Origin: Insolitispirillum peregrinum
GTDB lineage: Bacteria > Pseudomonadota > Alphaproteobacteria > Rhodospirillales > Rhodospirillaceae
DNA: 64,000 nucleotides
Reading direction: 5' to 3'
NCBI RefSeq assembly: GCF_900156605.1
Contig: NZ_FTOA01000004.1
Coordinates: forward strand, 1-64,000
The notes beneath the pieces are model-generated. The model searched no databases. It had not been told where the DNA came from and saw nothing but the letters and a program-made list of their open reading frames with translations. Shown here in pieces: positions 8,109 to 60,918 of this stretch. The first letter of the stretch is position 1; each line of letters starts with the position of its first letter. Made by a program: the position numbers and the translations under genes.

Positions 8109-8398
8109 AGAGCAGCGTGCGTTAAACCGGACGCCAGAGTACACGACAGTAAGGAAACAAGAGCGGGCTACCGCCCGAGCCCGTTTGGGGCCTGAGGCCC
8201 CAAGCCCCCATTTTTTCTTTTATGATCAAAGGAATGGGGTCCGGGGCCTAAAGGCCCCGGCGAGGTTTGGAGCAGCGCTCCATGATCTTTTTGTTTTGTG
8301 TCGTGTCCTATGACCTGACGCAGGCACGCTGCTCTAATCTTTTGTTCTGTCGCATTGTTTTTGCGAAAACCGGTGCCCACTTTTCGCACAATGCTCTA
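8109..8398 (+). repeat. Composite dispersed repeat, copy A
   Basis: Full-length copy. The left end AGAGCAGCGTGCG is mirrored by CGCTGCTCT ending at 8335; each end continues into the shared GTACACGACA/TGTCGTGT block. Inside are hairpins TTGGGGCCTGAGGCCCCAA, CCGGGGCCTAAAGGCCCCGG and GGAGCAGCGCTCC. A second module (8336-8398) contains GCGAAAACC...TTTTCGC and ends ATGCTCTA. The hairpin followed by a T-rich tract may end transcription of the upstream gene. Confidence 0.85.
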
Positions 8399-25756: not shown

Positions 25757-25973
25757 GGAAAACCAAAAAATCATGGAGCGCTGCTCCAAACCTCGCTGGG
25801 GCCAGTCGGCCCCAGACCCCATTGATTTGATATTCAAAGAAAAAATGGGGGTTCGGGGCCGGAGGCACAAGTGAACGTTCGGGGCCGGAGGCCCCGGGCG
25901 GTCCAGGCAGCAGCCTGCACCTTACTTCCCAACTGTTGTGTACTATGGCGTCAGGTTTACCGCACGCTGGTCT
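25757..25973 (-). repeat. Composite dispersed repeat, copy B (rearranged)
   Basis: Minus-strand orientation, between two convergent genes. The outer end CGCACGCTGGTCT stops at 25973, and the GGAGCGCTGCTCC and CTGGGGCCAGTCGGCCCCAG hairpins are present. The opposite terminal inverted repeat is missing, and a GTTCGGGGCCGGAGGC segment is duplicated, so this copy is decayed or rearranged. Confidence 0.75.
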
Positions 25974-42734: not shown

Positions 42735-44261
42735 ATGCCCTATGCTTCCCTGCGGGACTTTATGGAGCGACTGGAGCGCGAGGGCCGTCTGGTCCGCGTC
42801 AAGGAACCGGTCTGCACCGATCTGGAAATGACCGAAATCCAGACCCGCCTGCTGGCCGAAAAGGGTCCGGCAGTCCTGTTTGAAAACCCGGTCCGTGCCG
42901 ACGGGACGCCCTATGGCATGCCGGTGCTGGTCAACCTGTTCGGCACCGTCGAGCGGGTCGCCTGGGGGATGGACCGCGAACCGCACCAGTTGCGCGGCGT
43001 CGGCGAGACGCTGGCCTTCCTCAAGCAGCCCGAACCGCCAGCCGGTTTGCGCGATGCCTGGGAAATGCTGCCGCTGATCAAGACCGTGCTGTCGATGAAG
43101 CCCAAGACCATCAGCAGCGCCCCCTGTCAGGAAGTGGTGCTGACCGGTGACCAGATCGACCTGTCCCGCCTGCCGATCCAGCAATGCTGGCCGGGCGAAC
43201 CGGCACCGCTGATCACCTGGCCGCTGGTGGTGACCAAAGGCCCTGGCAAGGGCAAGGAAGACGGCTTCAACCTTGGCATCTACCGTATGCAGGTCACTGG
43301 CAGGAATACCACCCTGATGCGCTGGCTGAAGCATCGCGGCGGTGCCCAGCATTACCGCCGCTGGGCCAAAGACCACGGCACCGCCATGCCCGCCGCCGTG
43401 GTGCTGGGGGCCGATCCCGGCACGATTCTGGCTGCCGTCACTCCGGTTCCCGACACCTTGTCGGAATACCAGTTCGCCGGTTTGCTGCGCGGCAAGAAGG
43501 TCGAACTGGTCGATTGCAAGACCGTGCCGCTGAAGGTTCCGGCGCAGGCTGAAATCGTGCTGGAAGGCCACGTCATGCTCGACGAGTTCGGCGACGAAGG
43601 CCCCTATGGCGACCACACCGGCTATTACAATTCGGTCGAGCCGTTCCCGGTGTTCCGCATTTCCGCCATCACCATGCGCAAAAAGCCGATTTACCTGTCA
43701 ACCTTCACCGGCCGTCCGCCCGATGAGCCAAGCGTGCTGGGCGAGGGGCTGAACGAAGTGTTCATCCCGCTGCTGACCCAGCAGTTCCCCGAAATCGTTG
43801 ACTTCTGGCTGCCGCCCGAAGGCTGTTCCTATCGCATCGCGGTGGTCAGCATGAAGAAGGCCTACCCCGGCCACGCCAAGCGGGTGATGATGGGGGTGTG
43901 GTCGTTCCTGCGCCAGTTCATGTACACCAAGTTCGTGATCGTGGTGGATGACGACATCAACTGCCGCGACTGGAAAGACGTCATGTGGGCCGTTTCCACC
44001 CGCATGGACCCGGTGCGCGACATCACCATGATCGAAGGCACCCCGATTGATTACCTCGATTTTGCCAGCCCGGAAAGCGGTCTGGGCGGCAAGGTCGGGC
44101 TGGATGCCACCAACAAGTGGCCACCGGAGACTCACCGCGAATGGGGTGAAAAGCTGGCCATGGACCGCAGCGTGATCGAGACGGTCAATGCCAAATGGCA
44201 CAAGCTGGGCCTGCCGGGTTCCGGTAAATCCATCTGGCCGGAACCACCGACCGAATCCTGA
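42735..44261 (+). CDS. ubiD: UbiD-family decarboxylase
   Basis: 508 aa. The prenylated-FMN-dependent decarboxylase family is recognised by [43 protein letters not shown] and the E[11 protein letters not shown] segment with [20 protein letters not shown]. It likely decarboxylates 3-octaprenyl-4-hydroxybenzoate in ubiquinone synthesis; the partner ubiX is not in the window. GAAGG lies upstream. A composite repeat starts 24 bp after the stop. Confidence 0.92.
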
Positions 44262-44285
44262 AGACGGTGTTGCCGGAACCCGTTT

Positions 44286-44576
44286 AGACCAGCGTGCGTT
44301 AAATCTGACACCACAGTACACGACAGTTGGTGGAAAAGAATGGGCTATCGCCCAAACCCATTCGGGGCCTGAGGCCCCGAACCCCCATTTTTTCTTTCAA
44401 TATCAAGTCAATGGGGTCTGGGGCCTCAAGGCCCCAGCGAGGTTTGGAGCAGCGCTCCATGACCCTGTTTTCTGTTTGTCGTGTACTGTGATCGGACGCA
44501 GGCACGCTGGTCTGGCCTTTTGTTCTGCCGCATTGTTGTTGCGAAAACCGGTTCCCACTTTTCGCACAATGCTCTA
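44286..44576 (+). repeat. Composite dispersed repeat, copy C (best preserved)
   Basis: Module 1 (44286-44513) opens AGACCAGCGTGCG and closes CACGCTGGTCT; the inner TIR part is CACAGTACACGACAG against TGTCGTGTACTGTG. Internal hairpins are GAATGGG...CCCATTC, TTCGGGGCCTGAGGCCCCGAA, CTGGGGCCTCAAGGCCCCAG and GGAGCAGCGCTCC. Module 2 (44514-44576) holds GCGAAAACCGGTTCCCAC...TTTTCGC and ends in the stop codon of the convergent chemoreceptor gene. Confidence 0.9.
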
Positions 44577-46301
44577 CTGCGCCGCCAGCGTATTGGCGTC
44601 GGTCTTGTCGATCGAACGCGACAGCTCGTCCAGAATGCTCAGGACATTGCTGCTGGCTTCGTTCATTTCGCGCAGGTGGACCAGGGCACCATCCATATCC
44701 TGCCGGTAATAGGCATCCAGCGCCGCCTTTGCACTGGCATGCACCACCTCGTGCGGGACTTCCAGGCGACGGAAGTGCGGATTGCCGGTCAGGCGGGGAT
44801 CCTTGACCGTGTCGTACCATTTGCCCAACCGGCACTGATGGTCGTCGGGAACCTCGTGGGAATGCCATTCACCATCCCCCATCAGCACGTCAACCACCCG
44901 CTTTTTGAACAGCACATGGTCGATCTTTGCCAGTTCGCACAGGCCCCGGCTGGACCCGTCATGGAACCATTGGGTGGCACTGTTGGAGATGTGTGTGTTG
45001 CTGGTCTGGATGGCATGCGACACCGTGCGCACCAGCGTATTGTTTGCGCTCGCCATATCGGCCACCGAACCAATCCGCCCGGCGATCACTTCGCTGGCAT
45101 CCTGTTGTTGGTGCAGGATGTAGGAAATTTCCTGAATCTTGGCCGCGACGTTGGTAATCTGGCTCGACATCTGGTTGATTTTCTCAACCGTGGCATCAAT
45201 GGCCCGTTCGCCGCTTTGCACCGCGTCCTGCGAGCGGTTCATGGTCTGACGGATCGAGTCCATCCCGCGCCGCAGGGCGTCGATCTTTTGCGCAATGTCT
45301 TCGGTCGATTTGCTGGTCTGGTTGGCGAGGTTTTTCACCTCGTTGGCCACCACCGCAAAGCCCTTGCCGGCTTCCCCCGCCCGGGCGGCTTCGATGGTCG
45401 CATTCAGCGCCAGCAGGTTGGTCTGGTTGGCGATGTTCTCGATCACCGCCAGAATCTGGCCGATCTGCTCAGACGCCATCGCCAGATCATCAACGCTGCC
45501 TGCCGTATCAGCCACCGCGTCGGAAATCAGGGTGATCGCCTTGCGAGCCGCTTCGGCGTTGTTGGTGCCGTCGGTGACCACCATGTGGGCTTCTTCGGCA
45601 TCAACGGCAGCAGCCTGACTGTTGCGTGAAATGTCTTCGACCGCGTTGACCATCTCTTGCGCCGAGCGGGCAATCGAATCCCCTGATTCCGCCACCAGAT
45701 GGGAATTGCGCACCAGCTCGGCCAAACTGGCCGTGGCATCGTTCATGCTGATGATGGTTGCCGACAACTGCCGCAGATTGCCCACCGACTGTTCACGGTG
45801 ACGGATATCGGCGGTGATGCCGTCATGGTCGGTTTCATAGGCCGACAGGGCCAGCGCCATATCATTGAACACCAACCGGTTGAGGGTGCTCAGCAGGCCT
45901 TGCAGACGATTCGATTTCCACCAGTAGCGTTCGATCACCGCCTTGCTGAACCCGTTCAGGATCAGCGAATAGGTCGACAGGTACCACGCAGGCGACAGGC
46001 CGATCCGCGCATGGGCAGCCCCGACCCGCAACGCCCGTTGCTGATAGGCATCATTCGGGCCATCGCGCAGCAGGCCCAGCCAGTGAGAGGCCTGCGTCTT
46101 TTTCAGCTGCGGGATGCGGCTGCTGTCCCCCAGCACCTTGGCCAGCTCCGGGGTTTGCTGCAACGTCGCATAAAAGTGATCCACCAACGGCCCAAGGCAC
46201 CCTTCGGCAACCTTGTACAAGGGGGCAAGATTCGCCGCATCTTCCGGAGTCCACAGAAAATTACGGACCCGGTTCAGCTCGTTCAGCTCAAGATCGCTCA
46301 C
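44574..46301 (-). CDS. Globin-coupled methyl-accepting chemoreceptor with CZB domain
   Basis: 575 aa from the GTG at 46301 (AAAGG upstream); an ATG at 46376 gives 600 aa but has no ribosome site. The N-terminal protoglobin domain carries the proximal His in [20 protein letters not shown] signalling domain follows, with a conserved hairpin tip near [28 protein letters not shown]. The C-terminal chemoreceptor zinc-binding (CZB) domain shows [18 protein letters not shown] and [10 protein letters not shown], the H-C-H-H zinc ligands. It has no membrane segments, so it is a cytoplasmic oxygen-sensing receptor. The stop codon overlaps the dispersed repeat. Confidence 0.92.
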
Positions 46302-48312: not shown

Positions 48313-48568
48313 TGTCGTGTACTGTGGGTTCACATCACAGTACACGACACACAGAAAACAGGGCCGTGGAGCGCTGCTCCACACCTCGCTGGGGCCGTTA
48401 GGCCCCAGACCCCATTCATTTGATTATAAAAGAAAAGATGGGGGCCCGGGGGCATCGCCCCCAGGTGAATGGTCGGGGCCTCAGGCCCCGAATGGGTCTG
48501 GGCGATAGCCCATTCTTTTCCACCAACTGTCGTGTCCTGTGGCGTCAGGTTCAACGCACAATGCTCTA
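48313..48568 (-). repeat. Composite dispersed repeat, copy D
   Basis: Minus orientation, between lysK and the bactofilin gene, which converge. Its outer end is CTAGAGCATTGTGCG, and TAG there is the bactofilin stop codon. Hairpins GAATGGG...CCCATTC, TCGGGGCCTGAGGCCCCGA and CTGGGGCC...GGCCCCAG are present. At its left end TGTCGTGTACTGTG and CACAGTACACGACA (48313-48349) form a 14-bp inverted repeat. Confidence 0.85.
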
Positions 48569-52232: not shown

Positions 52233-52771
52233 GGTAGAAACCACAATAAGGAATACCTGATTCCGCACGCCCCTCCAAGGCCCATCCGTCATTTGCGGAC
52301 TCTTTTTGCATCTTTTCCTCCGGCCTCCACAGGCTGCCCATGAAAGGGGCAGTGAAATATCATGATCTTACAATTATCTATCCATATTTTGATCAAATAT
52401 TACCCATAAACCTGCCTGTGTCAGACCAGAACAATCCTACCCCTGCGTTTCCCAGCCGTTCCGACTCGCCGGAAAAACCGTGAAACAGAGGGCGTGTTTG
52501 CCTCCTCCAAACCGGGGGGGGGCTGCTTTGCGTTAGACCAGCGTGCGATAAATCTGACGCGGACATGCTGGTCTAACTTTTTGTTCTGTCGCATTGTTTT
52601 TGCGAAAACCGGTTCCCACTTTTCGTACAATGCTCTAGCGGAAAGAAAATGCTACATCTTTGCTCTGCCAACAGCGCTGCCAGGCACCCGGCCCCACAGC
52701 CGTGAGCCCCAGGCTCGAGGATTTTGTTTTGCCGCAGGGATGTTGCGCGCACTGCTCCAGGAGTTCCATCA
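52233..52771. other. Divergent intergenic region of the cold-shock and moeA genes
   Basis: Bases 52355-52415 are AT-rich and probably hold the cold-shock promoter and leader. The moeA side contains the deleted dispersed-repeat copy E (52535-52637). AGGAG near 52759 is the moeA ribosome site. No gene is seen. Confidence 0.5.
52535..52637 (+). repeat. Dispersed repeat copy E: fused terminal repeats plus module 2
   Basis: AGACCAGCGTGCG and CATGCTGGTCT are brought together in about 40 bp, with the whole hairpin core of module 1 missing. Module 2 (TTTTTGTTCTGTCGCATTG to ATGCTCTA) is intact. It looks like an internal-deletion derivative and shows that both modules can exist without the core. Confidence 0.8.
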
Positions 52772-54047: not shown

Positions 54048-54084
54048 GCACGGGGAGTTTTTTTTCACTCCCCGTGCATTTTTC
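54048..54084 (+). terminator. Intrinsic terminator of moeA
   Basis: GCACGGGGAG (54048-54057) pairs with CTCCCCGTGC (54068-54077), followed by ATTTTTC. Confidence 0.85.
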
Positions 54085-54175
54085 TCTTGCCAACCGTCAA
54101 AACAGCCACTAGAAACACGCTCCTCGGCGGGACACACCGCTGAGACAAAAAAGTCACTCACTGGTGACGCCCTCT

Positions 54176-54252
54176 GCGCCCGTAGCTCAACTGGATAGAG
54201 CACTTGACTACGAATCAAGAGGTTGGAGGTTCGAGTCCTTCCGGGCGCACCA
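54176..54252 (+). tRNA. tRNA-Arg(ACG), copy 1
   Basis: 77 nt with encoded CCA. The acceptor stem GCGCCCG pairs with CGGGCGC; the anticodon loop CUACGAA gives ACG; the T-arm contains GGTTCGAGTCC. A34 is expected to be edited to inosine to read CGU/CGC/CGA. Confidence 0.97.
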
Positions 54253-54258
54253 GTGTTA

Positions 54259-54286
54259 AACCCCAGGTCAAAAGCCTGGGGTTTTT
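54259..54286 (+). terminator. Terminator of tRNA-Arg copy 1
   Basis: AACCCCAGG pairs with CCTGGGGTT, followed by a T run. Confidence 0.9.
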
Positions 54287-54464
54287 CTTTTTGGCTTTGA
54301 TCTGACACAGATTTTCGCCTTTCGCCCTGCAAAAGCGCCCGCCTGAAAAAAGTTTTGATCCTGTGCATTTTTCCCTTGCCAAAGGTCAAAACAGCCTATA
54401 GAAACACGCTCCTCGGCGGGACACACCGCTGAGACAAAAAAGTCACTCACTGGTGACGCCCTCC

Positions 54465-54541
54465 GCGCCCGTAGCTCAACTGGATAGAGCACTTGACTAC
54501 GAATCAAGAGGTTGGAGGTTCGAGTCCTTCCGGGCGCACCA
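54465..54541 (+). tRNA. tRNA-Arg(ACG), copy 2
   Basis: Identical in all 77 nt to copy 1, 289 bp downstream. Confidence 0.97.
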
Positions 54542-54547
54542 GTGTTA

Positions 54548-54575
54548 AACCCCAGGTCAAAAGCCTGGGGTTTTT
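54548..54575 (+). terminator. Terminator of tRNA-Arg copy 2
   Basis: Same hairpin as after copy 1. It overlaps the last codons of the convergent DUF2786 gene, whose final residues (KRKTPGF) are encoded by the hairpin. Confidence 0.85.
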
Positions 54576-55303
54576 CTTTTGCCCTTTTTCCTCGGCGGGG
54601 ATCGTTCCTCAAACAACGCCTCCTGCCCCGGCAAAGCCATACCGACCTGATCGGCAGCCTGTTGCCCCTGAGTGAACAAAGCCCCATCGAAACGCCGCCC
54701 CGAACCATCGCTTTCGCGCAGGGTCAGCCCCAGATCACCAAACGCCTGATCGACCAGCGATCGCCGCACCACCACCAGCGCCCGCCCATCAGCCAGCGCC
54801 GGAGCCGCTTGTTCCCGTTCAGCCACCACCGCAAGAATCCGCTCTGCCAGCGACGCTGCCATGCCGAACTGGAACGATGCCTTGGCATCATCGCCCTGCC
54901 GGATGAATCGCTGGCTGGCCCGGAATTGTTCCCAGCCCTCGGCCAGCGCCTGCCGGATCACCTGTTCGAGGGTCGCTACCACCTCCAGGCTTTCGGGCAG
55001 ACCCAGAATGACGTGGGTGATTTTGCGGCTGGCATCGCGTTCCATCCACACCCGGCAATCGAACAGGGCGGCGATGGCAGGCAGGCACAGGCCAATCGGT
55101 TGGCGTTGCTTTTTATTGGTTGCCAGCTCCAGCCGCTGGCAGGCCGAGGTCTCGACCAGCGCCTGCGGAAAATCGGCATGGTAACGATCGAGTAATTCCA
55201 CCAGCTTCCCTGCCGCCGCCACCGCTTCGGCTTCGGTGCACCCGTTGGCGACGGTCCGCGCCCGCAAGGCAGCCACCAGACTGCGCAACTTGTCAGCATT
55301 CAT
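54557..55303 (-). CDS. DUF2786-domain protein
   Basis: 248 aa from the ATG at 55303 (AAAGGG upstream). The N-terminal 45 residues (LRSLVAALRARTVANGCTEAEAVAAAGKLVELLDRY) fit DUF2786, a helical domain seen in phage and plasmid proteins. The middle contains a conserved-looking ADGRALVVVRRSLVDQAF. Function is unknown. The C-terminal end runs into the tRNA terminator, so the final residues may have been acquired when the tRNA unit duplicated next to it. Confidence 0.75.
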   Translation of the reverse strand: MNADKLRSLVAALRARTVANGCTEAEAVAAAGKLVELLDRYHADFPQALVETSACQRLELATNKKQRQPIGLCLPAIAALFDCRVWMERDASRKITHVILGLPESLEVVATLEQVIRQALAEGWEQFRASQRFIRQGDDAKASFQFGMAASLAERILAVVAEREQAAPALADGRALVVVRRSLVDQAFGDLGLTLRESDGSGRRFDGALFTQGQQAADQVGMALPGQEALFEERSPPRKKGKRKTPGF

Positions 55304-55623: not shown

Positions 55624-57489
55624 ATGAGTCTAAGCACAAAGATTTCCATCGTTTTCGGGGCCATCGCCGTGTGCCTGGTTTCCATGCTGGTGGTGATCAA
55701 CCTGTATGCGTTCCGGTCATTTTCCATCAATGCGTCGACCGAGCACATCCGGACGGCTGCCGAAATCGTGCGCGTCCATCTGACCGAAGCGATGATCAAC
55801 GGGGTGATCGACAAGCGTGAAAGCTTCCTCACCCGCCTGATGGAAGTGCAGGGTCTGTCTTCGGCCCGCGTCATCCGTGGTCCGCAGGTGGTCAAACAGT
55901 TCGGCCCAGGCCTTGGTGGCCGTGAAACCGCATTTGACACCATTGAAGAATCCGTCCTGCAAAACGGTCAGCCGCAGTACGAAGTCATCGAAAGCGACGA
56001 CGGCACGACCTTTCGCGGCACCATTCCCTTTGTCGCCACCGCCAGGGGAACCCCCAACTGCCTGCAGTGCCACGAAGTCCCCGAAGGGGCCGTACTGGGG
56101 GCCGTCACCATGTCAATGTCGGTGGACAACCTGAAATTCCAGGCGGTAATCACCGTGTTTGCCATCGTCGGCATCGTGATGGTGTTTTCCTCGCTGGCGT
56201 TCTTTGTCATTCGCCGCATGATCCGTCCGGTGACCGCCACCGCCCAGAATGTCGAGGAGGCCGTTCAGCGGGCCTTGCGCGGCGATTTCAAGGCCGTTGT
56301 CCGCAAGACCACCAACGATGAACTGGGGCAGATTGCCACCGACATGAACCGCCTGCTGGTCTTTCTGGACGCGGGCCTGACCCGGATCGGCAAGAATGTC
56401 GCCCACCTGACCAACCGCACCACCAGCAGCGACGACAACCTGCTGGAAGCCACCATCGACATGGTTGATGGTCTGACCCGTGCCGCCCATTTCAAGCAGG
56501 CGATCGAAGAAGACGAAACCAAGAGCGAAATTCACCACCGTCTGGCCGAAGTGATGCGGGAAGAATTCCAGTTGCAGGAATATTCCCTCTACGAAATCAT
56601 CCAGAACAAGAACCAGATGGTCCCGGTCTATGTCGATGGCGAGGCGGAAGGTGCCTGCCGCTGGTGTGACCCGCAGATCATGGTCCGCAGCGAAGCCTGT
56701 CGCGCCCGTCGTACCGGCCATCCCGTCGATGGCATCAGCAACCCGGGCATCTGTTACGCCTTCAAGGCTGGCGACCACAACAACGACCGGGTCCATGTCT
56801 GCCTGCCGATCATGCAATCCGGCGCGGTTGGCAACGTCCTGCAACTGGTTGCCCGCCCCGAAGACGAGGAGGACCTGCGCAGCAAGATTCCGCTGATCAA
56901 CGTCTATCTGCGGGAAACCGCCCCGGTGCTGGAAACCAAACGCCTGATGGACTCGCTGCGCGAGTCCAGCCTGCGCGACCCGATGACCGGCCTGAACAAC
57001 CGTCGCTTCCTCGAGGAATATGTCGAAACCCTGGTGGCCAACAGCCAGCGCAACCAGATGGGCCTGACGGTGATGATGCTCGACCTTGACCATTTCAAGA
57101 TGGTCAACGACACCTACGGCCACGACGCGGGCGATGCGGTGCTGAAATCGCTGGCCAAAGTGTTGCGGCAGGCGGTGCGGGCGTCGGACATGGTCATTCG
57201 CTATGGCGGCGAAGAATTCATGATCATTCTGGTGAATACGGTCGGAGACCCCGCCGATCAGGTCGCCGAGAAAATTCGCGCCTCGGTCGAAGCGATGGAA
57301 ACCCATGTCGGGGCCACCACCCTGCGAAAGACCATCTCGATCGGTGTCGCCGATTTCCCCAGCGACAGTGATACCTTCTGGCAGGCGGTCAAATTTGCTG
57401 ACGTTGCGCTGTATCAGGCCAAGGAAAGCGGACGCAACCGCGTGGTCCGCTTTGTCTCGGACATGTGGCAGAACAAGAAAGAGTATTAG
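55624..57489 (+). CDS. Diguanylate cyclase with periplasmic c-type haem sensor
   Basis: 621 aa from the ATG at 55624 (AGGGAA upstream). Order: membrane helix (ISIVFGAIAVCLVSMLVVINL), periplasmic domain (about 35-165) with the haem-attachment motif NCLQCHE, a second membrane helix, HAMP-like linker, a cytoplasmic GAF-like domain with a Cys cluster (CRWCD, EACRARRTG, NPGICYAF), then GGDEF with LDHFKMVNDTYGHDAGD and RYGGEEF. RASD is an I-site. The haem domain resembles DUF3365/Tll0287-like sensors and may sense redox or gas. The stop codon is the first base triplet of repeat copy F. Confidence 0.88.
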   Translation: MSLSTKISIVFGAIAVCLVSMLVVINLYAFRSFSINASTEHIRTAAEIVRVHLTEAMINGVIDKRESFLTRLMEVQGLSSARVIRGPQVVKQFGPGLGGRETAFDTIEESVLQNGQPQYEVIESDDGTTFRGTIPFVATARGTPNCLQCHEVPEGAVLGAVTMSMSVDNLKFQAVITVFAIVGIVMVFSSLAFFVIRRMIRPVTATAQNVEEAVQRALRGDFKAVVRKTTNDELGQIATDMNRLLVFLDAGLTRIGKNVAHLTNRTTSSDDNLLEATIDMVDGLTRAAHFKQAIEEDETKSEIHHRLAEVMREEFQLQEYSLYEIIQNKNQMVPVYVDGEAEGACRWCDPQIMVRSEACRARRTGHPVDGISNPGICYAFKAGDHNNDRVHVCLPIMQSGAVGNVLQLVARPEDEEDLRSKIPLINVYLRETAPVLETKRLMDSLRESSLRDPMTGLNNRRFLEEYVETLVANSQRNQMGLTVMMLDLDHFKMVNDTYGHDAGDAVLKSLAKVLRQAVRASDMVIRYGGEEFMIILVNTVGDPADQVAEKIRASVEAMETHVGATTLRKTISIGVADFPSDSDTFWQAVKFADVALYQAKESGRNRVVRFVSDMWQNKKEY

Positions 57490-57790
57490 ACCAGTGTGCG
57501 TTAAACCTGACGCCACGGTACACGACAGTTTGAAAACAAGAGCGGGCTGCCGCCCGAACCTGCCCGGGGCCTGAGGCCCCGAACCCCCATTTTTCTTTGA
57601 CTATCAAAGTAATGGGGTCTGGGGCCGACCAGCCCCAGCGAGGTGTGGAGCAGCGCTCCATGATCTTGTTTTCTGTTTGTCGTGTACTGTCATCTGACGC
57701 AGGAACGCTGGTCTGATCTTTTGTTTTGTCGCAGTGATTTTGCGCAAAACCGGAACCACTTTTGCGCTCACGGCTCCAGACCAGTGTGCG
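57488..57790 (+). repeat. Composite dispersed repeat, copy F
   Basis: Starts AGACCAGTGTGCG inside the stop codon of the diguanylate cyclase gene. Module 1 closes with AACGCTGGTCT (57704-57714); module 2 has GCGCAAAACCGG...TTTTGCGC. A further AGACCAGTGTGCG (57778-57790) follows, so a second element end abuts it. Hairpin 3 has a changed loop (CTGGGGCCGACCAGCCCCAG). Confidence 0.85.
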
Positions 57791-58910: not shown

Positions 58911-60650
58911 ATGCCTGAACACGCCATTGGCGGTTTTGAAGCGGCGCTGATCCTGTTGATCAGCGCCGTCGTCTTTGTACCGCTTGCTGTCCGTTTCAAC
59001 ATCGGCTCCATTCTTGGCTATCTGGGGGCTGGCGCGCTGGTCGGGCCCTCGGGGCTGGGGCTGATCCAGAATGTCGATGCCGTGCGCCACCTCGCCGAAT
59101 TCGGGGTGGTGTTTCTGTTGTTCGTCATCGGCATCGAGATGAAACCATCCCGCCTGTGGCTGATGCGACGGCAGGTTTTCGGTCTGGGCGGCAGTCAGGT
59201 CCTGATCACCGGTGCGGTGCTGGCCTCAGCCATTGTCTTTCTGCCCCTGTTTCCCTCGCCGCTGAATGTGGGACAGGCGTCCCTGATCGGGCTGGGGCTG
59301 GCCCTGTCATCGACCGCGATGGGGTTGCAAATCCTGGCGGAACGGCGCGAGCTATCGGCTCCCCATGGCCGCAGCGCCTTTGCCATCCTGCTGCTGCAGG
59401 ACCTGATGGTGCCGGTCTTGCTGGCGATGGTGCCGATGATGGCCAACAAAACCGATGAATTCGGGGATGAACTGGCCTTTGCCGCCATCGAAGCCTTCGG
59501 GATGATCTTTGCCGCCTTGCTGATTGGCCGCCTGATGCTGCGCCGGGTTCTGCGGGTGGTCGCCCAAAGCCGCAGCTCGGAAATCTTTACCGCCGTCGCC
59601 CTGCTGATTGTCCTCAGCATGGCGTGGATCAGCGAACAGGCCGGGCTGTCGCAGGCTCTGGGGGCCTTTCTGGCCGGTTTGTTGCTGGCCGACTCTGAAT
59701 ACCGCCACCAGATTGAAGGCGACATCCAGCCGTTCCGCGGCCTGCTGCTGGGCCTGTTTTTCATCGGCGTCGGCATGAGCATCGACTTGCGGCTGCTGCT
59801 GACCGACTGGCCGCTGATTCTCGCCCTGCTGGTCGGACTGATGGCCATCAAGACACTGGTCCTGATCCCGTTGTGTGGCCTGTTCGGACAGGACTGGCGC
59901 GACGGTACCCGCGTCGGCCTGCTGTTGTCGCAGGGTGGCGAGTTTGCCTTTGTGCTGTTTGGCATCGCCATCAGCCAGAACGTTCTGTCGCCCCAGATCG
60001 GCAGCATGCTGGTGCTGCTGGTTTCCCTGTCAATGGCGCTGACCCCGCTGGTCGTTCTGGCTGCTGAACGTCTGCACCACCGGTTGTCGCCAGTCACCAC
60101 CACGTTGCGAGCAGATACCCCGCCCGAGCCCCGCACCAACGAAGCCCACGTCATCATTGCCGGGTTCGGTCGGGTCGGTCGTACGGTGGCCGTTCTGCTG
60201 AAAGCGGCGGGCAAACCCTATCTCGCCTTTGACAAGGATCTGGAGCGGGTCGCACGCGGGCGGGCTGCGGGCTTTGAGGTCTTTTACGGCGATTCCAGCA
60301 GGCCCGAGGTGCTGCGCGCCGGTCACGCCGCCCGTGCGGCGTTGCTGGTGGTCACCCTTGATGATCCCGGAACCACCACCCGGCTGGTGGCCTGCATCCA
60401 CCAGCAGTTCCCGGATTTGCCGATCCATGCCCGTGCCCGCGATCTGGTGCATTCGCAATCCCTGCATTCCAGCGGTGCCTTGCAGGTGGTACCGGAAACC
60501 CTCGAAGCCAGCCTGATTCTGGGGGACAAGGTTCTGACCGCCCTTGGCATGGCCAGTTCGGACGTTTCAGCCGTCATCCACGCCCAGCGCGAGAATGGCT
60601 ATGCCCTGCTGATGCAATCAGGTCTGGCGCAGGACCCTGCCGGGAATTAG
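58911..60650 (+). CDS. KefB-like monovalent cation:proton antiporter with TrkA-N domain
   Basis: 579 aa. About 11-12 membrane helices of the CPA2 family (NIGSILGYLGAGALVGPSGLG near the N-terminus) precede a cytosolic RCK/TrkA-N domain (HVIIAGFGRVGRTVAVLL) that binds NAD(H) and gates transport. It expels K+ or exchanges Na+/K+ for H+. Three Glu/Asp/Arg-rich segments after the RCK domain are regular. The stop codon TAG lies in the first bases of repeat copy G. Confidence 0.92.
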   Translation: MPEHAIGGFEAALILLISAVVFVPLAVRFNIGSILGYLGAGALVGPSGLGLIQNVDAVRHLAEFGVVFLLFVIGIEMKPSRLWLMRRQVFGLGGSQVLITGAVLASAIVFLPLFPSPLNVGQASLIGLGLALSSTAMGLQILAERRELSAPHGRSAFAILLLQDLMVPVLLAMVPMMANKTDEFGDELAFAAIEAFGMIFAALLIGRLMLRRVLRVVAQSRSSEIFTAVALLIVLSMAWISEQAGLSQALGAFLAGLLLADSEYRHQIEGDIQPFRGLLLGLFFIGVGMSIDLRLLLTDWPLILALLVGLMAIKTLVLIPLCGLFGQDWRDGTRVGLLLSQGGEFAFVLFGIAISQNVLSPQIGSMLVLLVSLSMALTPLVVLAAERLHHRLSPVTTTLRADTPPEPRTNEAHVIIAGFGRVGRTVAVLLKAAGKPYLAFDKDLERVARGRAAGFEVFYGDSSRPEVLRAGHAARAALLVVTLDDPGTTTRLVACIHQQFPDLPIHARARDLVHSQSLHSSGALQVVPETLEASLILGDKVLTALGMASSDVSAVIHAQRENGYALLMQSGLAQDPAGN

Positions 60651-60918
60651 AGTATTGTGCGTGAAATCTGACGCCACAGGACACGACAGTTTCTGAAAAA
60701 GAATGAGCTACCGCCCAGACCCGTTTGGGACCTGAGGCCCCAAGCCCCTTTTTTCTTTCAATATCAAATCAATGGGGTCCGGGGCCTCAAGGCCCCGGCG
60801 AGGTGTGGAGCAGCGCTCCACGTTACTGTCGTGTACTGTGAGGCACACTGGTCTAACCTTTTGGTGTGCCACAGTGATGGTGCGCAAAACCGGTTCCCGC
60901 TTTTGCGCACGATGCTTT
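60649..60918 (+). repeat. Composite dispersed repeat, copy G
   Basis: Starts AGAGTATTGTGCG in the stop codon of the antiporter gene. Hairpins CCGGGGCCTCAAGGCCCCGG and GGAGCAGCGCTCC are present; TTGGGACCTGAGGCCCCAA carries one mismatch. Module 1 closes CACACTGGTCT at 60854, and module 2 (GTGCGCAAAACCGGTTCCCG...TTTTGCGCAC) ends near 60918. Confidence 0.8.

Follow-up and report, generated by a model that had tools for sequence, protein, structure and literature searches.

Bacterial MITEs such as Correia/NEMIS, RUP and ERIC are, as outlined in PMC2229807 and PMC10969869, short non-coding elements with inverted ends, a target duplication, an intergenic location and a structured sequence. The pneumococcal BOX, RUP and SPRITE repeats are modular hairpin repeats that are over-represented between convergent genes (as summarized in PMC3049150) and that are reported to insert into one another (in the overview of PMC10969869). 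REP, BIME and REPIN sequences, with the REP-associated Y1 transposase RAYT, are inverted pairs of short extragenic palindromes present in high copy (according to the accounts in PMC2817692, PMC3116915, PMC8266576 and PMC3733652). Insertion sequences that target REPs illustrate how a mobile element can repeatedly insert in a palindromic repeat (as sketched in PMC1525189). Among the Alphaproteobacteria, the CIR repeats of Caulobacter and Brucella are intergenic, have conserved folds and are built from a pair of inverted-repeat arms (as described in PMC2229807).

We analyzed a 64,000-nt stretch of the Insolitispirillum peregrinum genome (the window) and found that positions 44286–44513 are one copy of a nested high-copy repeat, whose core is a MITE, a small non-coding mobile element with many copies. 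The original prediction had treated this unit as a single element, module 1, when it is a composite of a MITE and the two halves of a host repeat. The features named above for Correia/NEMIS, RUP and ERIC are all shared by our element, but its interior doublet is free-standing in other genera, its target duplication is 9 bp long and searches with PF01609 and PF00872 found no partner transposase. Its likeness to the pneumococcal repeats is one of description. Unlike the REP-targeting insertion sequences, the insert is a MITE and does not carry its own transposase. CIR repeats are set apart by their description (in PMC2229807), which includes a GANTC methylation motif and no terminal inverted repeats. 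We give a probability of about 0.7 to the reading that the locus is a nested repeat, a MITE with an inverted doublet lying in a host hairpin, whose pairing is kept on both strands alike.

Architecture and mobility of the nested repeat

The copy at 44286–44513 (copy C, with all parts on the plus strand) begins with the left half of the host hairpin repeat (44286–44302), recognizable from empty sites. It is followed by the left 9-bp target duplication ATCTGACAC (44303–44311), which matches its right counterpart ATCGGACGC (44491–44499) at 7 of 9 bases. Between the two lies the non-coding core of about 180 bp (44312–44490), bounded by the inverted ends CACAGTACACGACA at 44312–44325 and 44477–44490. 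The right half of the host repeat (44500–44576; family D5, with the palindrome ..GCGAAAACCGGTTCCCACTTTTCGC..) continues beyond position 44513, where the unit had originally been ended. Because the core has inverted ends, a target duplication and empty sites, we classify it as a MITE; it is placed in the loop of the second, host hairpin repeat in either orientation. On the minus strand, the right part of the host repeat (44529–44574) is similar to a portion of BASRCI408, the Rfam entry for a Brucella sRNA (E 5.5e-5, 26 bits, far below the gathering score of 398).

The letters previously given to the copies were assigned to coordinates by inference. On the plus strand, they are copy A (unit 8109–8335, MITE 8135–8312), copy C, copy F (unit 57488–57714, MITE 57514–57691) and copy G (unit 60649–60841, MITE 60675–60840). 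On the minus strand are copy B, which has one decayed end (unit about 25760–25973, MITE 25760–25946), and copy D, which has one extra hairpin unit (unit 48334–48568, MITE 48336–48541). The host hairpin repeat is also present without a MITE, as an empty site, at 52539–52637 (plus strand). Eight copies in the genome, including the one at 48336–48541, have a left half with one hairpin unit more, so that whole hairpin units are gained or lost. At 48313–48349, two MITE ends are arranged back to back (48313–48326 and 48336–48349, 9 bp apart), with no recognizable core behind the left one. Elsewhere in the window, a 228-bp direct duplication (54071–54298 and 54360–54587, 96% identical) holds a tRNA gene in each copy.

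Each of the six window copies has an exact match to the 15-mer TGGAGCAGCGCTCCA, of which the 4.64-Mb assembly contains 224, while the reversed pattern, used as a control, does not occur. A BLAST search with the 228-bp unit returned at least 47 matches, with 40 of 406 candidates scored. We collected 410 kb of the genome in 105 segments, mostly fetched because they hold a copy, and identified 149 core-matching places, 81 of them near full length; each place was counted on one strand, as the palindrome matches the reverse strand too. The analysis of covariation rests on many more copies than could be seen in the window.

Several measurements bear on the element's mobility. The CACAGTACACGACA ends, with at most one mismatch, occur 221 times in the genome (control 0). 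The 9-bp duplication agrees at 8 or 9 of its 9 bases in 22 of 47 two-ended copies, a count that none of 5000 shuffles reached (mean 5.5, maximum 14); the other 25 copies have fewer than 8 matching bases, and 13 of these have 5 or fewer. Across 82 copies examined, host arms flank the core in one orientation in 22 and in the opposite orientation in 9, while 12 have neither arm. The host repeat without an insert, allowing up to 3 mismatches, occurs 96 times in the genome (control 0), these empty sites being other loci rather than the same locus in another strain. One MITE copy is itself nested within the hairpin of another, with GGGGCCGGG on both sides (C4:561446). The host hairpin also shows matched arm changes (GACCAGC..GCTGGTC versus GAGCAGC..GCTGCTC, for example at loci L001 and L016), and this matching is kept even when a MITE lies between the arms. 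Carriage by plasmids or phages was rejected or at least made less likely, as a blastn search (E 1e-5) of 72,556 plasmid records and 50,697 phage records returned nothing.

An inverted doublet of small palindromes, extragenic and in high copy, is what a REPIN moved by a RAYT would look like. We consider this origin very improbable. The RAYT domain PF01797 was found in 13 of 41 genomes searched and in neither the source genome nor the genomes G003, G007, G013 and G014, and the absence from the source genome led us to reject or at least weaken this candidate. Compared to REP, BIME and REPIN sequences as they are described, the element has transposon-like ends, and by inspection its palindromes have no GTAG or CGTC tag beside them, the units beginning with GGGGTY. 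A 9-bp duplication with inverted ends does not fit Y1 transposition. The distribution of the repeats suggests a different origin, in which a REP-like doublet would have been captured between transposon ends and then amplified in trans by a transposase. Our search for a transposase gene with CACAGTACACGACA ends returned three fragments with PF01609, in two places and with no such ends nearby, and no match to PF00872.

Matched base changes in the hairpin stems

The core of copy C contains five hairpins, and the base-pair changes quoted in the original prediction are all present in the window copies. Three hairpins covary. H1 (44341–44354, plus strand) has CGGG..CCCG in copy A and TGGG..CCCA in copies C and D, with a closing pair that is CG 60 times and TA 32 times in the genome. 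H2 (44362–44380, plus strand) has TTGGGGCCTGAGGCCCCAA in copy A and TCGGGGCCTGAGGCCCCGA in copies C and D. H4 (44418–44437, plus strand) has CCGGGG..CCCCGG in copies A and G and CTGGGG..CCCCAG in copies B, C, D and F (TA 57 and CG 47 in the genome). The central stem H3 (44383–44416, plus strand), which has a T-rich loop side, is paired with little or no covariation. In H5 (44444–44460, plus strand) the outermost pair varies and the core GGAGCAGCGCTCC is nearly invariant. The claim that GGAGCAGCGCTCC is invariant holds within the window and fails genome-wide, where we found GGGGCAGCGCCCC (C23:104598), CGGAGC..GCTCCG (C3:301696) and single changes. Many copies were fetched by the exact 15-mer, and this hides variation in H5.

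We compared these changes with shuffled alignments of 47 copies. The covariation score was 0.154, compared to 0.082 when shuffled, and none of 500 shuffles was as high. Pairs changed on both sides numbered 9 rather than 5.9 (reached in 3 of 500 shuffles), and the count by cells was 81 rather than 27.3. The number of further pair types did not rise (23 versus 22.8 shuffled).

We then counted events on a tree of the 94 longer copies from the genome, using the stem pairs of H1 to H5 with at least two changes per side. Coincident changes on the same branch numbered 45 in stem pairs, compared to 12.1 expected, and 34 of the 45 went from one Watson-Crick pair to another. The same calculation for 2751 non-stem pairs (4 to 35 columns apart) gave 1853 coincident changes and 2049.9 expected. 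There was little excess in H3 (3 versus 1.7) or in the MITE ends (9 versus 6.8). The ends of the MITE thus change independently while the inner hairpins of the same copies change in matched pairs, which argues that age and copying alone are insufficient to explain the pairing. The copies are mosaics, with 42 hairpin-type combinations in 83, so that one tree is inadequate for them; our guard against this effect is the flat result obtained with non-stem pairs.

A stricter, R-scape-like test (G statistic with background correction and 60 tree-based nulls) retained one pair at E < 0.05, columns 29–42 in H1 (E 0.033). As this test is blind to whether changes compensate, we relied on event counts as well. 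When all 15,418 column pairs of the 94 copies were ranked by the background-corrected G, 7 of the top 16 fell in H1, H2, H4 or H5, a count that takes in the loop-closing columns 114–117, and H1 ranked first. The remaining 9 are unpaired, mostly within the loops of H2 and H3.

The hairpin plan recurs in other genera. The right half of the MITE has the plan GGGGTY-hairpin-GCGAGGT-hairpin and the left half has the same plan inverted, so the interior is a two-hairpin unit, GGGGTY-hairpin-GCGRGGT-hairpin, present twice in inverted arrangement. The plan is shared by other genera of the order, where the stems differ and the MITE ends and host repeat are missing; neither was found in 60 other-genera loci (fetched for their match to the unit) or in 80 named Rhodospirillales loci around ubiD. 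The one-unit pattern is present in 19 of 297 genomes of the order, including the source genome, where it has 181 matches (control 0). A stricter pattern, one base more demanding and missing the source genome, matched 7 of the 73 family genomes and none of the 385 from the class, the latter figure being valid only for this pattern. In a descriptor search, 24 loci fetched for the unit yielded 21 units, the 80 named loci yielded 1 and reversed sequence yielded none. The UbiD protein encoded by the source genome shares 90% identity with its counterparts in Novispirillum itersonii and Rhodospirillaceae bacterium BRH_c57; just downstream of ubiD, we saw by eye no element in N. itersonii and one unit, of different sequence, in BRH_c57. 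Our literature search, which covered few subscription journals, found no description of the Rhodospirillales unit, and one may still be published.

In other genera, two of the closing pairs alternate between T-A and C-G. Across 62 units, from loci obtained by searches that fix part of the motif, the inner closing pair is TA 35 times, CG 20, TG 2, CA 0 and others 5, and the next pair is CG 34 times, TA 20, TG 5, CA 1 and others 2. Both T-A and C-G are found at the inner closing pair in 4 of 9 genera. Two other-genera loci have a distinctive layout: one (L236, genome G010, 1500–2075) is a regular array of four GGGGTTTGGGGCCAATGGCYCCAAGCGGG units about 182 bp apart, and the other (L046, genome G014, approximately 1388–1550) is a doublet with a strong T-tailed central hairpin (GGGCCCCCGCAAGGGAGGCCCTTTTTT), so that the two inverted units look as though they enclose a terminator.

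The hairpins H1, H2, H4 and partly H5 keep their pairing through matched changes beyond what shared descent would give. The proposal that these changes exceed phylogeny stands by the event counts (45 observed and 12.1 expected, as above) and by recurrence in other genera; under the strict test it stands for one pair. A constraint on hairpin pairing looks real.

Strand symmetry, folded RNA and template switching

The original prediction held that such covariation implies selection on a folded RNA. Under this reading, a small RNA or riboregulator is made from a fixed strand and its fold is what is selected. The stems do covary, and the predicted fold is very stable on the plus and minus strands (z-scores of −8.3 and −9.3), as expected for any palindrome. 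Single-change intermediates also lean toward T.G, with T.G 9 and C.A 2 at columns 107–124 and T.G to C.A at 9:1 at columns 51–67, single-pair counts that share ancestry. An RNA read from one strand is expected to tolerate G-U pairs more than A-C mismatches. Over all stems, however, events that leave a Watson-Crick pair went 58 times to G-U and 66 times to A-C (P = 0.53), and the excess of T.G over C.A at single pairs was not borne out by event counts. The element's orientation is likewise unbiased: next to tandem genes it has the direction of the genes in 24 cases and the opposite one in 18, and the split in other genera is 13 and 12. We found no promoter-like site at 44240–44640. At Rfam gathering cut-offs, the window contains two tRNAs only and the element has only below-cut-off matches, so a known Rfam family was rejected or at least made less likely. 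The folded RNA is thus one of several readings and not the favored one, and we regard it as unlikely.

Together, the losses of pairing and the orientation data favor a feature whose function or repair is the same for the two strands. Pairing would then be kept equally on the two strands and not as one specific RNA; its form may be a hairpin or cruciform in DNA, or the 3′ ends of RNAs transcribed from either side.

Another reading supposes no selection for pairing. The arms of a selfish MITE could be re-copied from each other by template switching during replication, which would produce compensatory changes in one step. The mechanism is described in PMC8794818, where template switching in DNA can give both changes at once. 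It fits the strand symmetry of the pairing losses and the coincident changes at columns 107–124 (13) and 51–67 (8), all of which went from Watson-Crick to Watson-Crick. Against it, the stems are still paired in other genera that have diverged widely, and the single intermediates at columns 107–124 exist. Loop inversions, a trace that template switching might leave, are almost absent as well (TCAA 53 versus TTGA 1, TGA 49 versus TCA 1 and AGC 124 versus GCT 1), which is a weak point against template switching because inversions are rare under this mechanism in the findings outlined in PMC8794818. We consider template switching without selection possible, though somewhat doubtful.

Placement at gene ends

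We called genes with a simple codon-usage script and placed 137 of the 149 core matches: 90 are between convergent genes, 42 between tandem genes and 5 between divergent genes, and none is in a predicted gene. The expected numbers, 16, 89 and 32, were derived from the lengths of intergenic sequence in six regions, each 15 kb or longer; these contain 17, 49 and 19 convergent, tandem and divergent gaps and hold only 10 of the placed matches (6 convergent and 4 tandem). When neighboring matches are merged, the counts become 73, 42 and 4. The convergent copies are located a median of 56 bp from the stop codon. In other genera, 22 elements are convergent, 25 tandem and 4 divergent, compared to 47, 180 and 91 gaps, with 1 in a gene and 18 of 70 not placeable; 4 of the 22 convergent elements belong to one tandem array.

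This placement is what would be expected if the host selected a bidirectional gene-end element, whose hairpins terminate transcripts from convergent genes or protect them, and the tendency is similar in other genera. When elements are viewed from gene ends, 101 of 178 views contain a terminator-like site, compared to 12 to 20 in five shuffles, and a minus-strand hairpin (H1) has a T-rich tail. H2 and H5 are separated from the T-tracts by some bases. Nor are other terminators in short supply at gene ends facing an element, with 24 observed and 25.6 expected after length matching. An apparent deficit (24 of 178 versus 33 of 85), which had suggested that elements replace terminators, was gone after this correction. 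Pneumococcal repeats and insertion sequences have the same placement, which PMC3049150 reads as tolerance. A hairpin beside a T-rich tract may, as suggested, end transcription; the H1 tail and the terminator-like views are sequence signs of such a role, and are not matched by any shortage of other terminators. Selection of the element by the host for gene ends is a tentative proposal, toward which we remain skeptical. In the reading we favor, copies would persist between convergent genes because insertions are tolerated there, and perhaps also because the hairpins help to end or protect both transcripts.

A broader version of the gene-end proposal is one we hold to be less probable still. It supposes that the doublet is an old, symmetric gene-end element of several genera, with pairing selected on both strands, that was here captured between transposon ends and spread to very many gene ends. 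If true, the repeat would be a mobile, ready-made bidirectional 3′ signal.

Covariation in a repeat is, by itself, no proof of a functional RNA. The pairing of the stems could be kept by DNA hairpins, by RNA hairpins or by template switching, and the hundreds of paralogues, the empty sites and the free-standing relatives in other genera together constitute a natural experiment on stem pairing.
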